A stretch of 64,000 bases of DNA, from NCBI RefSeq assembly GCF_002954225.1, contig NZ_PPTH01000016.1:1-64000 (forward strand). Reading direction: 5' to 3'. The notes beneath the pieces are model-generated. The model saw only the letters and a program-made list of their open reading frames with translations. It did no database searches and was not told the origin of the DNA. This document shows positions 50,373-54,115 of the stretch, piece after piece (position 1 is the first letter of the stretch; each line of letters begins with the position of its first letter). The stretch comes from Arthrobacter ruber (GTDB lineage: Bacteria; Actinomycetota; Actinomycetes; Actinomycetales; Micrococcaceae). The translations under genes were made by a program, and so were the position numbers.

Positions 50373-51947
50373 ATGATGACCCCTGAAGGTGCGGCGGACG
50401 ACGTCGAGGTGCTCGTGGTCGGGGCCGGCCCCACGGGCCTGATGCTGGCGAACTGGCTGGTGAAACTGGGCGTGCCCGTCGCGGTCATCGACGGCAAGGA
50501 CGGGCCGACGGTGGAGTCGCGCGCCCTGGGCGTGCACTCGCGCTCCATGGAGATCTACGACCAGCTCGGCGTCGTGGACGGCGTGCTGGCCGAGGCCCAG
50601 CACGCCGAGTCGCTGCGCCAGGGGTACGGGCGGAAGGCCTTCACCCCCATCCCGCTGACCCGGCTCGGGCAGGGCCTCACGCCCTACCCCGGGATGTACA
50701 TGCTGGAGCAGAGCGCCAACGAGCGGATCCTTGCCGCCAACCTGCAGGCAACCGGCGGATCCGTGCGCTGGCGGCACCGGCTGGCCACCCTGGAGCAGCA
50801 CGACGGCGCCGTCTCCGCCGTCGTCGAGGGCCCCGCCGGGACCTCGACCATCCGTGCGCGCTTCGCCGTCGGCTGCGACGGTGCGTCCTCGGCCGTCCGG
50901 TCCCTGTGCGGCACGCCCTTCGAGGGCACGACCAGCCGGCAGAGCTTCTACCTCGTGGACGCGCTGGGCGTCCGGGGGCTCAGCCCCGCCTCCGTGAACA
51001 TCCGCCAGGGCGCCACCGAGTTCCTGCTCGCGTTCCCCATGCGCCCGGCGGAGGACGGCCGGAGCGGGCAGCGCCTCATCGGCATCGCCGGCGACGACAC
51101 CCCGCCGATCACGGAGGACGTCGCGCGCCGCCGCCTGGCCGAGGGCTTCGGCGTCACGTACGAGGACCACCGCTGGTTCTCCACGTACCGCGTCCACCAC
51201 CGGATCGCCGCTCGGTTCCGGACCGGCTCCGTGTTCCTCGCCGGCGACGCCGCCCACGTCCACTCACCCGTCGGCGCGCAGGGCATGAACACCGGACTCC
51301 AGGACGCCCACAACCTCGCGTTCAAACTCGCGGACGTGGTCGCGGCTCGTGCCCCGGAGTCGCTCCTGGACCGCTACGAGGCCGAGCGCCGACCCGTGGC
51401 CGTGCGCCTGCTGAGGACGACGGACACCGTGTTCCGCGGGGTCACCTCCCGCAGGAGGACCGCGGTCCTGGTACGCCGCTACGTGCCGCAGGTGGTGCTG
51501 CCCGTCGCCATGGCCGTGCTGCCCCGCCTGCCGGTGGGCCGCCGTCTGGCCGGATACCTGGGCCAGCTGAGGATCCACTACCGCATGCCCGGCTCGCCCC
51601 CGGGGCGGCGCCGCGACGCCGTCGTCGGCCGCCGCCTGCCCTGGACGGGGGAGAACTTCGCGGCACTCCGCACCGCGGTGTGGCAGCTGCACCTGTATGC
51701 GGGGGACGACGCCGCGGCACGCCTGGCAGGTGTGGTCGCCGGCGAGCTCGGACTTCCCCTCTCCACCTTCGCGACGACCGGGTCGACCCCGCTCGAGGCC
51801 GGCGTGCTGTACCTCGTACGGCCCGACGGCTTCGTGGCGGCGGCGGCCACGCCTGCCAAGGCGCTCCCCGCCTTCGACGCCGCGCGGCGCGCCTCGCCCA
51901 CAACGGGATCCCCTGCTCACCCCGCCGAGACGAAAGGACTGCCATGA
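50373..51947 (+). CDS. FAD-dependent aromatic hydroxylase-type monooxygenase
   Basis: Flavoprotein of 524 residues of the PHBH/PheA class: VLVVGAGPTGLMLANWLVKLG (ADP fold, about 11-31), the DG-type FAFPM region, VFLAGDAAHVHSPVGAQGMN (about 288; GD motif) and a C-terminal thioredoxin-like module (about 420-520). It would hydroxylate an aromatic or polyketide substrate with NAD(P)H and O2. Overlaps the UBP zinc-finger gene by ATGA; the PCD-VOC gene precedes it. Confidence 0.88.
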   Translation: MMTPEGAADDVEVLVVGAGPTGLMLANWLVKLGVPVAVIDGKDGPTVESRALGVHSRSMEIYDQLGVVDGVLAEAQHAESLRQGYGRKAFTPIPLTRLGQGLTPYPGMYMLEQSANERILAANLQATGGSVRWRHRLATLEQHDGAVSAVVEGPAGTSTIRARFAVGCDGASSAVRSLCGTPFEGTTSRQSFYLVDALGVRGLSPASVNIRQGATEFLLAFPMRPAEDGRSGQRLIGIAGDDTPPITEDVARRRLAEGFGVTYEDHRWFSTYRVHHRIAARFRTGSVFLAGDAAHVHSPVGAQGMNTGLQDAHNLAFKLADVVAARAPESLLDRYEAERRPVAVRLLRTTDTVFRGVTSRRRTAVLVRRYVPQVVLPVAMAVLPRLPVGRRLAGYLGQLRIHYRMPGSPPGRRRDAVVGRRLPWTGENFAALRTAVWQLHLYAGDDAAARLAGVVAGELGLPLSTFATTGSTPLEAGVLYLVRPDGFVAAAATPAKALPAFDAARRASPTTGSPAHPAETKGLP

Positions 51948-52285
51948 CGGACGCCATCGATACGGGCGTCGCCCCCTCGGGCACCGGCTGCAAGGAGTGC
52001 GACGCCTCCGGAGGCTGGTGGGTGCACCTGCGCCGGTGCGCCGCGTGCGGTCAGGTGGGGTGCTGCGACAGCTCCCCGTCCCGCCACGCCTCCGCGCACG
52101 CGGCGTCGGCCGGTCATCCGGTGGCGATGTCCTTCGAGCCGGGCGAGGACTGGTTCTGGGACTACCGCACGCACCAGTTCACGGACGGTCCTGCCCTCGC
52201 CGAGCCGACCAGCCGCCCGGCCGACCAGCCCGTCCCCGGCCCGGCCGGGCGCGTGCCCGCCGACTGGCGACGCCGCATCCACTGA
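51944..52285 (+). CDS. UBP-type zinc-finger protein
   Basis: Protein of 113 residues with a zf-UBP core: C16-C19, C32-C35, C40 and His residues at about 48, 52 and 58 (CKECDASGG, RRCAACGQVGCC). In eukaryotes this fold binds ubiquitin C-termini; small bacterial copies are of unknown function and may bind a C-terminal tail or flavoprotein partner. AAAGGA before the ATG; translationally coupled to the monooxygenase. Confidence 0.9.
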   Translation: MTDAIDTGVAPSGTGCKECDASGGWWVHLRRCAACGQVGCCDSSPSRHASAHAASAGHPVAMSFEPGEDWFWDYRTHQFTDGPALAEPTSRPADQPVPGPAGRVPADWRRRIH

Positions 52286-52409
52286 CCCGGGCAGCGACAC
52301 CACGGCGCGCCCCCCTGTCGTCGTGCTCCGGGCGTCGGTGGCAGCGTCTAGGCTTCGAAGGCCGGCACCGGGACGAGGAGCCGGCACCACGGGGAGACGG
52401 GGTGTGAGG

Positions 52410-52835
52410 ATGGACGGTTCCGGTGCGTCCGGTGCGGCGCCGCGCCGGCCGATGGGCTCGACCGAAGGCGGCTCGCTCCTGCCGTCGGGGTACGCCTCCC
52501 CCGCTCAGGACTGGTTCGAGGACCGCATCGACCTCAACCGCCACCTCATCAAGGACATCACGAGCACCTTCATCGTCCGGGTCTCCGGGGATGCCATGGA
52601 GGGAGCGGGCATCTCCGACGGCGACGAGCTGATCGTCGATCGCGCCCTGCGCCCGCGCGACGGGTCCGTGGTGATCGCGGTGCTCGACGGCGAGCTCGTC
52701 ATCCGCAGGCTCCGGATCGCACCGTCGGGAGTTCTGCTCGTCGCCGCCCACACCGCCTACGAGCCCATCCCCGTCCCCGATCCGGACCACCTGGTGATCT
52801 GGGGGGTCGCCACCCGGTGCCTGCACCATGTCTGA
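52410..52835 (+). CDS. umuD: UmuD-like S24 protein lacking the protease dyad
   Basis: Protein of 141 residues aligning with UmuD over [10 protein letters not shown] (cleavage region) through GVATR. In E. coli UmuD, Cys24-Gly25 is the cleavage site, Ser60 the nucleophile and Lys97 the base. Here these become Ser26-Gly27, Ala62 (codon GCC at 52593) and Arg99 (CGC at 52704), so self-cleavage should be impossible. The N-terminus (Gly/Ser/Ala-rich) is also unlike UmuD. It may act as a constitutive UmuD'-like partner of UmuC, or be a decaying gene. I see no GAAC-N4-GTTC SOS box upstream. Confidence 0.85.
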
Positions 52836-52849
52836 GCACCATGTCTGAG
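52824..52849 (+). repeat. 13-bp tandem duplication at umuD-umuC junction
   Basis: CACCATGTCTGAG occurs at 52824-52836 and again at 52837-52849. The first copy holds the umuD stop and an ATG that would open umuC in an overlapping arrangement, but now ends after six codons; the second copy supplies the functional umuC start. Confidence 0.9.
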
Positions 52850-54115
52850 CACCGCAGCAGCATCGCGCTGGTGGACGTCAACAATTTCTACGTCTCCTCC
52901 GAGCGCGCCTTCGACCCGTCGCTCGAGGGCCGGCCGCTCGTGGTGCTCTCCAACAACGACGGCTGCGTGATCACCCGCAGCCCCGAAGCGAAGGCCCTCG
53001 GCATCAGCATGGGCACGCCGTGGTTCCGCATCGCCGGGCAGGCGCGGGACTGGGGGCTGGAGGTGCGTTCGAGCAACTACGAGCTCTACGGCGACCTCAG
53101 CGCCCGCGTCATGGAACTCCTCGGCCGGTACACCGGGAACCTCGAGATCTACAGCATCGACGAGGCCTTCCTCACCCTCTCGGGCCCCCTGGACGCCCAG
53201 CACCGCACCGGAACCGAGATACGGGCCGTGGTGCGCCGCCACGTCGGCCTGCCCGTCTGCGTGGGGATCGCGCCCACCAAGACCCTCGCCAAGCTCGCCA
53301 ACCGCTGGGCGAAGGGCAACCCGGGCTTCGACGGCGTGTGCCACTGGGACCTGGTGCCCGAGGAGCACCGGCGGTCCCTGCTGCAGCGCCTCGCTGTCTC
53401 GGACATCTGGGGTGTCGGGGCGAGGAACGCCCAGCGGCTCAACGCGATCGGGATCGACTCGGCATGGGACCTCGCCGCCGCCGACCCCGTCGGCATCCGC
53501 AAGCGCTTCTCGGTGGTGCTCATGAGGACGGTGCTCGAGCTGCAGGGCACTTCCTGCATCACCGGACACGAATCCACCGGCAACGAGCAGGTGCTCTACT
53601 CCCGCTCCTTCGCCACACCGGTGACCACGCGGGATGCGATGCACCAGGCGCTCAGCACCTACGCGCAGGGCGCCGCCTCCCGCCTGGCCCGGAAGTCACT
53701 GCAGGGGCGGGTGATCACGGCCTTCGCCGCCACCTCACCCTTCAGCACCGGACCCAGGAGCGCGCCGACCGTCTGCGTCCCGCTGCCCGCCCACACGGCG
53801 AACCCCCTAGAACTGACGCGCGCCGCGGATCGGCTCCTCCCCCTCGTCGAGGAGGGTGTGCCGTACATCCGCGCGGGCGTGGTCGTCACCGACCTGCGAC
53901 CCGCCGGCGCCCAGGCCCTGCTGCCGGTCGACGGCTCGGCGCCGAAGGACACAGGTCTTCTCCTACACGACGTGGGCCGGCGGTTCGGACGGTCGGCCAT
54001 CGGGCTCGGCCACGCGGGGCTGAAGGCGGGCTCCGACTGGACGATGAAACGGGACATGCTCTCGCCCCACTACACGACCAAGTGGTCGGAGCTACCCGTC
54101 GTGAAGGCCCGGTAG
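52841..54115 (+). CDS. umuC: Y-family DNA polymerase V catalytic subunit UmuC
   Basis: Translesion polymerase of 424 residues. The catalytic N-terminus has [19 protein letters not shown] (metal Asp) and [12 protein letters not shown] (metal Asp-Glu); [22 protein letters not shown] is the finger region. A little-finger/C-terminal part follows from about 240. The active residues are intact, unlike those of its UmuD-like partner. Start at 52841 is in the second copy of the 13-bp repeat. Confidence 0.95.

Follow-up and report, generated by a model that had tools for sequence, protein, structure and literature searches.

In the textbook view, cleavage of UmuD is a timer by which mutagenic repair is held back to the late SOS response, and the HumD protein of phage P1 is a natural UmuD' form that lacks the N-terminal arm. 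In E. coli, docking of this arm is described as necessary for UmuD cleavage, and UmuD 3A, a full-length protein in which three arm residues are changed to Ala, is reported to be non-cleavable and is considered a UmuD' mimic (PMC5342242). Elsewhere in the superfamily, SipA of Streptococcus and CI of phage 186 are described as members without the usual dyad that have kept a binding role (PMC12984324). At the level of transcription, PafBC, an activator that works independently of RecA, has the RecA-NDp promoter motif as its target (PMC6789036, PMC8223512), and some genes of the PafBC regulon are reported to carry both RecA-NDp and an SOS box (PMC8223512). Among the open-licence papers listed in our searches, we found no description of a dyad-less UmuD clade or of a PafBC-controlled umuDC operon. 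Here we analyse a umuDC operon of Arthrobacter ruber, located in a stretch of 64,000 nucleotides (the window), that differs from the E. coli operon in the residues of UmuD as well as in the promoter.

A UmuD homologue without the catalytic dyad

The operon comprises the following features:

52404..52406, + strand: alternative GTG start, in frame, two codons 5' of the ATG
52410..52835, + strand: umuD homologue, 141 aa, S24/UmuD' fold without the dyad, the ORF being confirmed at this place
52410..52487, + strand: N-terminal arm, 26 aa, hydrophobic-poor and predicted to be disordered (pLDDT, arm composition)
52485..52490, + strand: degenerate cleavage position S26-G27, the equivalent of C24-G25 in E. 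coli UmuD
52593..52595, + strand: A62, at the position of the nucleophile Ser60 in E. coli UmuD (alignment)
52704..52706, + strand: R99, at the position of the general base Lys97 in E. coli UmuD (alignment)
52841..54115, + strand: umuC, 424 aa, polymerase residues intact (IMS, IMS_C and DUF4113 domains; alignment with E. coli UmuC)

Aligned with E. coli UmuD, the window protein reads SGDAM for SGDSM, has Arg for Lys in VIRRL and carries Ser-Gly at the cleavage point, just as the initial annotation had read from the letters. Its further statements that the fold is kept and that umuC is intact alongside hold as well: the protein belongs to the UmuD' fold, matching Peptidase_S24 (73.4 bits, cut-off 23.3) and the NCBIfam model NF007621 for the autoproteolytic subunit of Pol V (135.1 bits, cut-off 110), and the window UmuC aligns over its whole length with E. 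coli UmuC, with DVN and SIDE kept. The Ser-Lys catalytic dyad is absent (A62 and R99), and instead of a Cys/Ala-Gly site with a hydrophobic arm there is Ser-Gly with a hydrophobic-poor arm; judged from these residues, the proposal of a UmuD free of autoproteolysis is supported as an expectation. The protein is not an armless HumD, as it falls below the cut-off of the HumD model (70.1 bits against 120) and has an arm of 26 residues with an SD energy of -10.8 at its ATG (ATG-26), compared with -7.9 at GTG-28. The genome encodes this one UmuD only, plus a LexA with intact SGDSM and Lys.

The umuC start lies 5 nt past the umuD stop codon, as in an operon. The clamp motif of UmuC reads QALLPV in the window and QLNLF in E. 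coli, and we put no weight on it because it is degenerate in many relatives too. Directly 5' of umuD (window 51944-52285) lies a gene for a zf-UBP protein, a zinc finger of the ubiquitin-hydrolase type. In the clade to which the window gene belongs (the window clade), a group of soil Arthrobacter that includes Arthrobacter agilis with its complete chromosome, umuC is full length in 9/10 members; in the tenth, L032 of Arthrobacter sp. SX1312, it is broken after codon ~104 and the dyad-less umuD is open. Four further loci (L053, L054, L059 and L161) have umuC interrupted near a point common to the four, after codon ~92, by an insert whose first ORF resembles a tyrosine recombinase by eye. On Arthrobacter plasmids, recombinase elements inserted between umuC and umuD have been reported (PMC6305408).

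Arg at the base position among Micrococcaceae

Within the genus, a UmuD-like hit beyond LexA was found in 13 of 38 genomes, our own included, nine of them Ala+Arg and four Ser+Lys at the nucleophile and base positions. Among named genomes, 80 of 99 relatives were kept; a family search gave a hit at 1e-15 in 229 of 395 genomes and added 22 new loci; and 40 more loci were fetched from the matches listed, hand-picked from several groups with a preference for suspected Arg types. With E. coli added, these made 156 usable loci, from which 28 duplicates were removed to leave 128 distinct ones. The set is biased to close relatives of the window protein because both searches started from it, and Arg types were sought within Micrococcaceae only.

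The base is Lys in 71 of the 128 loci (Lys types) and Arg in 57 (Arg types), a split that is no frequency because loci were hand-picked toward suspected Arg types. Judged by record title or family code, all 57 Arg types are Micrococcaceae, and in this sample Arg is the only replacement of the base Lys. The nucleophile is Ser in 71/71 Lys types and Ser in 34, Ala in 20 and Gly in 3 of the Arg types; with Ser intact in every Lys type, Ser is therefore never lost in the sample while Lys is present. The changes seen in the window are thus widely shared among related Micrococcaceae, 23 of the 57 Arg types being without Ser as well, and a change peculiar to the window genome is ruled out. So is a sequencing error behind Ala or Arg, because all 10 distinct members of the window clade have both.

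At the cleavage point, P1 in Lys types is Ala in 63, Cys in 7 (E. coli among them) and Val in 1 (n=71), which rules out Cys as the usual residue. The initial annotation was thus correct that the site has changed, to Ser-Gly in the window, but the residue usual in Lys-type relatives is Ala and not the Cys of its E. coli comparison. Arg types are far more varied at P1 (S23, A17, M8, R4, T2, I1, V1 and H1, n=57): 17 keep Ala-Gly and 40 have something else. The eight with Met are Paeniglutamicibacter-like (L086, L087, L088, L090, L092, L093, L094 and L097); a start at this Met would give UmuD', and its SD energy is weaker than that of the upstream start in 8/8. One genome, G330, carries an Arg-type umuD (L112, contig C1) and a Lys-type umuD (L152, contig C2, 374,851 bases), and the two types seem to live together in one cell.

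A hydrophobic-poor arm on a conserved core

In the predicted structure, made for the window UmuD alone, pLDDT is under 50 for residues 1-25. As a measure of the arm we took the fraction of ILVFMYW over the 21 positions N-terminal to the cleavage point, which averages 0.35 in Lys types (n=70, E. coli omitted) but 0.11 in Arg types (n=57). The fraction is under 0.22 in 53/57 Arg types (L053, L087, L088 and L093 being the exceptions) against 2/70 Lys types, and Val occupies P3 in 66/70 Lys types but in 0/57 Arg types. Start codons were examined in 37 Arg types: for most, an arm start of good SD energy lies 22-30 codons upstream of the Gly, and in L053, L099 and L171 the start is shorter or unclear. 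By these counts, loss of the dyad therefore pairs with a hydrophobic-poor arm and, in 40/57, with an altered cut site, while most of the core stays. As the arm statistics come from related sequences, we also took independent contrasts on supported branches: Arg went with a hydrophobic-poor arm in 2.9 of 3 on average and none went the opposite way, three being too few for a sign test.

The core is under purifying selection beside an intact umuC, with dN/dS of 0.148 in the window clade, 0.05 and 0.12 in two other Arg groups and 0.07 in a Lys-type group; the arm values for the same groups are 0.25, 0.37 and 0.53, and 0.096. Eleven core columns in which Lys types are fixed to 85 percent or more (29, 33, 62, 66, 70, 93, 97, 99, 114, 117 and 118) are altered or relaxed in Arg types. 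At the UmuD' N-terminus, G27, S30 and P31 are invariant in 57/57 Arg types, P29 is replaced by Ala in 21/57, the window included, and Q33 by Arg in 33/57.

Lys was probably lost more than once

A downstream umuC hit was found for 125 of the 128 loci, 108 of them complete enough for a quick tree; for the careful umuC tree (76 rows), 30 far or near-identical rows and two odd long ones were dropped. On this tree there are 4 Lys/Arg changes, at least 3 of them on supported branches, and a single Arg clade is rejected (log-likelihood 108 lower, p-AU 0.00013), the Arg label having been fixed before the test and the quick umuC tree having already been looked at. Two Gly+Arg types form a group with the window clade (96/100), and a branch that is not strong (91/90) unites this group with L063 and with Lys-type rows from the Pseudarthrobacter group. 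For UmuD itself, a first quick tree put all 57 Arg types in one clade with weak support (84), and a careful tree of 91 rows has 3 changes and rejects neither of the arrangements tested (p-AU 0.37 for a single Arg clade, 0.47 for the other arrangement); because the UmuD alignment is too short, these data leave the number of origins undecided. Since a single origin of the Arg types does not hold on the umuC tree, Lys was probably lost more than once, and repeated loss is the simplest reading of these trees; exchange of umuD between operons, or a return to Lys, may be the alternative.

A PafBC-type motif in place of the LexA box

We scored as a LexA box any site in the 120 bases upstream with 9 or more of 12 positions, a threshold set after the first scan. 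None was found upstream of the window umuD or in any of the 10 window-clade members, the wider scan included. The remark in the initial annotation that no LexA-like box precedes the gene, and that SOS control may have been lost, thus extends to the whole clade. The box is present in 34/34 Ser+Arg, 2/3 Gly+Arg, 9/20 Ala+Arg and 42/71 Lys types, and in 0/128 in-gene controls; the wider scan gave 34/34, 3/3, 9/20 and 43/71. The 11 Ala+Arg loci without a box are the 10 window-clade members and that of Micrococcus terreus (L099). Elsewhere in our genome, the scan gave two box-like sites on the upstream side of the C-terminal match of LexA, at a distance of 0.6-0.7 kb from it.

Upstream of the window umuD lies a different element:

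52332..52354, + strand: putative RecA-NDp (PafBC-type) promoter motif, GCGTCGGTG-N8-TAGGCT, score 10/12

The transcript start inferred from it is ~45 nt 5' of the umuD start codon, and in an alignment of the window-clade upstream regions the clearest conserved block is GTGTCGGYG-N8-TAGGCT-like. Scored against the letters that we take to be the RecA-NDp consensus, with exact spacing, all 10 members reach 9-11 of 12. Scrambled motifs matched the clade result in 0/1000 trials, and in 0/2000 when the test was run on four representatives with 48-54 percent identity between their upstream regions; in single sequences, 0 to 14 percent of the shuffles score as high. Ser+Arg types score only 7-9. With a spacer of 7-9 allowed, a score of 10 or more is found in 19/71 Lys types against 6/128 in-gene controls, and in 10 of 12 Lys-type genes chosen for the motif an SOS box begins 5-7 nt past the -10 element (L172 has a weaker box at 7, and L170 has none there). 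The Lys-type arrangement would thus be a composite promoter, and by its letters that of the window clade looks like the same promoter without the LexA operator.

The genome encodes the activator that such a promoter would need, a fused PafBC of 662 aa with two WYL domains and the PafC HTH, which matches the Arthrobacter PafBC 6sj9 (E 4.3e-112). Genome-wide, the pattern with one mismatch allowed occurs at 41 sites, the umuD site among them, against 10 for the reversed pattern. For 16 of the 41 we examined the downstream ORF, and nine of these ORFs were scanned with Pfam: six gave UvrB, a RecQ-type helicase, a RadA-like ATPase (by eye), a Y-family polymerase (DinB by eye), a photolyase and a gyrase B-type protein, and the remaining three DUF3072, an oxygenase and no hit. 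By eye, the seven unscanned sites include one FtsH-like and one epimerase-like gene and some without a convincing gene, and therefore not every motif site precedes a repair gene. Because others do precede DNA-repair genes, umuD would be in plausible company. At four sites of our genome (L180, L183, L191 and L204) the distance from the -10 element to the start of the ORF (UvrB, RadA-like, DinB-like and photolyase) is 6 nt, which suggests leaderless PafBC-type transcripts.

Discussion

The reading we favour, with fair but not firm confidence, is that the window UmuD is a pseudo-protease born in a UmuD'-like state, the dose of which would be set by PafBC-driven transcription and not by RecA-triggered cleavage or by LexA. 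An arm unable to dock would leave the dimer in the UmuD' conformation without a cut, such a dimer would join UmuC at once, and the amount of Pol V would be set by PafBC-activated transcription after DNA damage. Both RecA-dependent switches, cleavage of LexA and cleavage of UmuD, would thereby be bypassed, and control would have moved to transcription, under LexA in most Arg lineages and under PafBC in that of the window. The active polymerase complex may itself still require RecA, which is described as part of the working polymerase (PMC12926913, PMC11791011). The initial annotation had suggested an always-active partner; this stands in so far as no cleavage is expected, but is too strong for expression because the PafBC-type motif implies RecA-independent, damage-inducible transcription. 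We propose more tentatively, as something that could well prove otherwise, that bacteria have repeatedly dropped RecA-triggered cleavage in Pol V, with dyad and docking residues gone and UmuD active as made, and that in one lineage PafBC has taken over the operon from LexA, which would free both activation steps of this mutagenic polymerase from RecA.

Loss of the dyad can be read in the opposite sense, with UmuD locked in the uncut form and serving as a checkpoint factor or a brake on replication and UmuC instead of a mutagenesis subunit. In E. coli, mutagenesis is strongly reduced with UmuD 8 S60A, derived from a variant with an arm that docks and is cleaved, and the contact between alpha and the beta clamp is reported to be disrupted by UmuD at full length but not by UmuD' (PMC5342242); the retention of 22-30 arm residues in most Arg types with examined starts (n=37) fits such a role too. 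UmuD 18, in turn, stays uncut with a more mobile arm, and its mutagenesis is low but detectable (PMC5342242). From this E. coli comparison, the UmuD'-like reading therefore rests on the arm changes: in Arg types the arm has lost most of its hydrophobic residues, and an E. coli variant with an unbound arm is described as resembling UmuD' (PMC5342242). The invariance of G27, S30 and P31 of the UmuD' N-terminus in Arg types likewise speaks against a locked form. An arm seemingly unable to dock, combined with a damaged active site, looks, by analogy, like what a UmuD' mimic needs, and we regard a locked, uncut UmuD as unlikely though deserving of weight. A cost of the UmuD'-like state is that, because in a published Pol V model the N-terminus of UmuD' comes close to the active site of UmuC (PMC11791011), the 26 extra residues must be accommodated in the UmuC cleft. 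Also counting against it are the 17/57 Arg types with Ala-Gly still at the cleavage point and the replacements of P29 and Q33 in the UmuD' N-terminal motif.

The arm might also be removed by other means, if an internal translation start or another protease yielded a short form. An ATG stands directly before the Gly in 8/8 Paeniglutamicibacter-like members (P1 = Met) and three codons before it in 9/10 of the window clade; in the window gene no start codon follows ATG-12 before the Gly is reached, the SD energy at ATG-12 is weak (-1.7), and the upstream start has the stronger SD energy in 17 of 18 members (L009 being the exception, -6.4 against -6.2). With arm dN/dS below 1, as expected if the arm is translated, we consider such a short form improbable. 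Still less credit goes to decay, in which the operon would be heading for loss and the residue changes be neutral. It would fit the presence of umuD in 13/38 genus genomes and the broken umuC of L032, but it sits badly with a core dN/dS of 0.148, with full-length umuC in 9/10 clade members, with a promoter motif conserved in 10/10 and with loss of Lys in separate umuC lineages whose operons are intact. Least probable of all, and scarcely to be expected, is that Arg still acts as a base with a different nucleophile and that cleavage persists. LexA with Arg at the base Lys keeps a little activity at high pH, which we count in favour of this idea, together with Arg being the sole replacement in 57/57, 34 of which keep Ser and 17 Ala-Gly. 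The window UmuD has neither Ser nor Cys at the nucleophile position, and columns 97, 114, 117 and 118, fixed in Lys types, are variable in Arg types.

Lineages that seemingly lack the cleavage timer amount to a natural experiment on its purpose, most of them keeping a LexA box and one having a RecA-independent motif instead. In them one could also ask directly if Pol V is activated by undocking of the arm and not by its removal.

UmuD and Pol V are a known kind of system; what appears to be new is this variant, together with its likely repeated origin and the exchange of promoter. Compared with UmuD/UmuD' of E. coli, the window UmuD is without the dyad and the Cys/Ala-Gly site and has an arm poor in hydrophobic residues, and compared with E. 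coli umuD its gene has a PafBC-type promoter motif and no LexA box that we could find. It is like E. coli UmuD 3A (T14A L17A F18A; PMC5342242) in its full-length arm and changed docking residues and, by its sequence, in being presumably not cleavable; unlike that laboratory variant, the window type is natural, common to whole lineages and has also lost the catalytic residues. As with HumD of phage P1, the window UmuD would act without cleavage, but unlike HumD it has kept its arm. SipA and 186 CI serve in pilin assembly and gene repression, not in the management of a polymerase. In having a RecA-NDp motif together with PafBC, the window genome resembles mycobacteria and other actinobacteria with a PafBC regulon. 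The Lys-type umuDC of the Pseudarthrobacter group are close relatives in both subunits and part of them carry the RecA-NDp motif, but they differ from the window in an intact dyad, an Ala-Gly site and, for 10 of the 12 Lys-type genes chosen for the motif, an SOS box after the -10 element.
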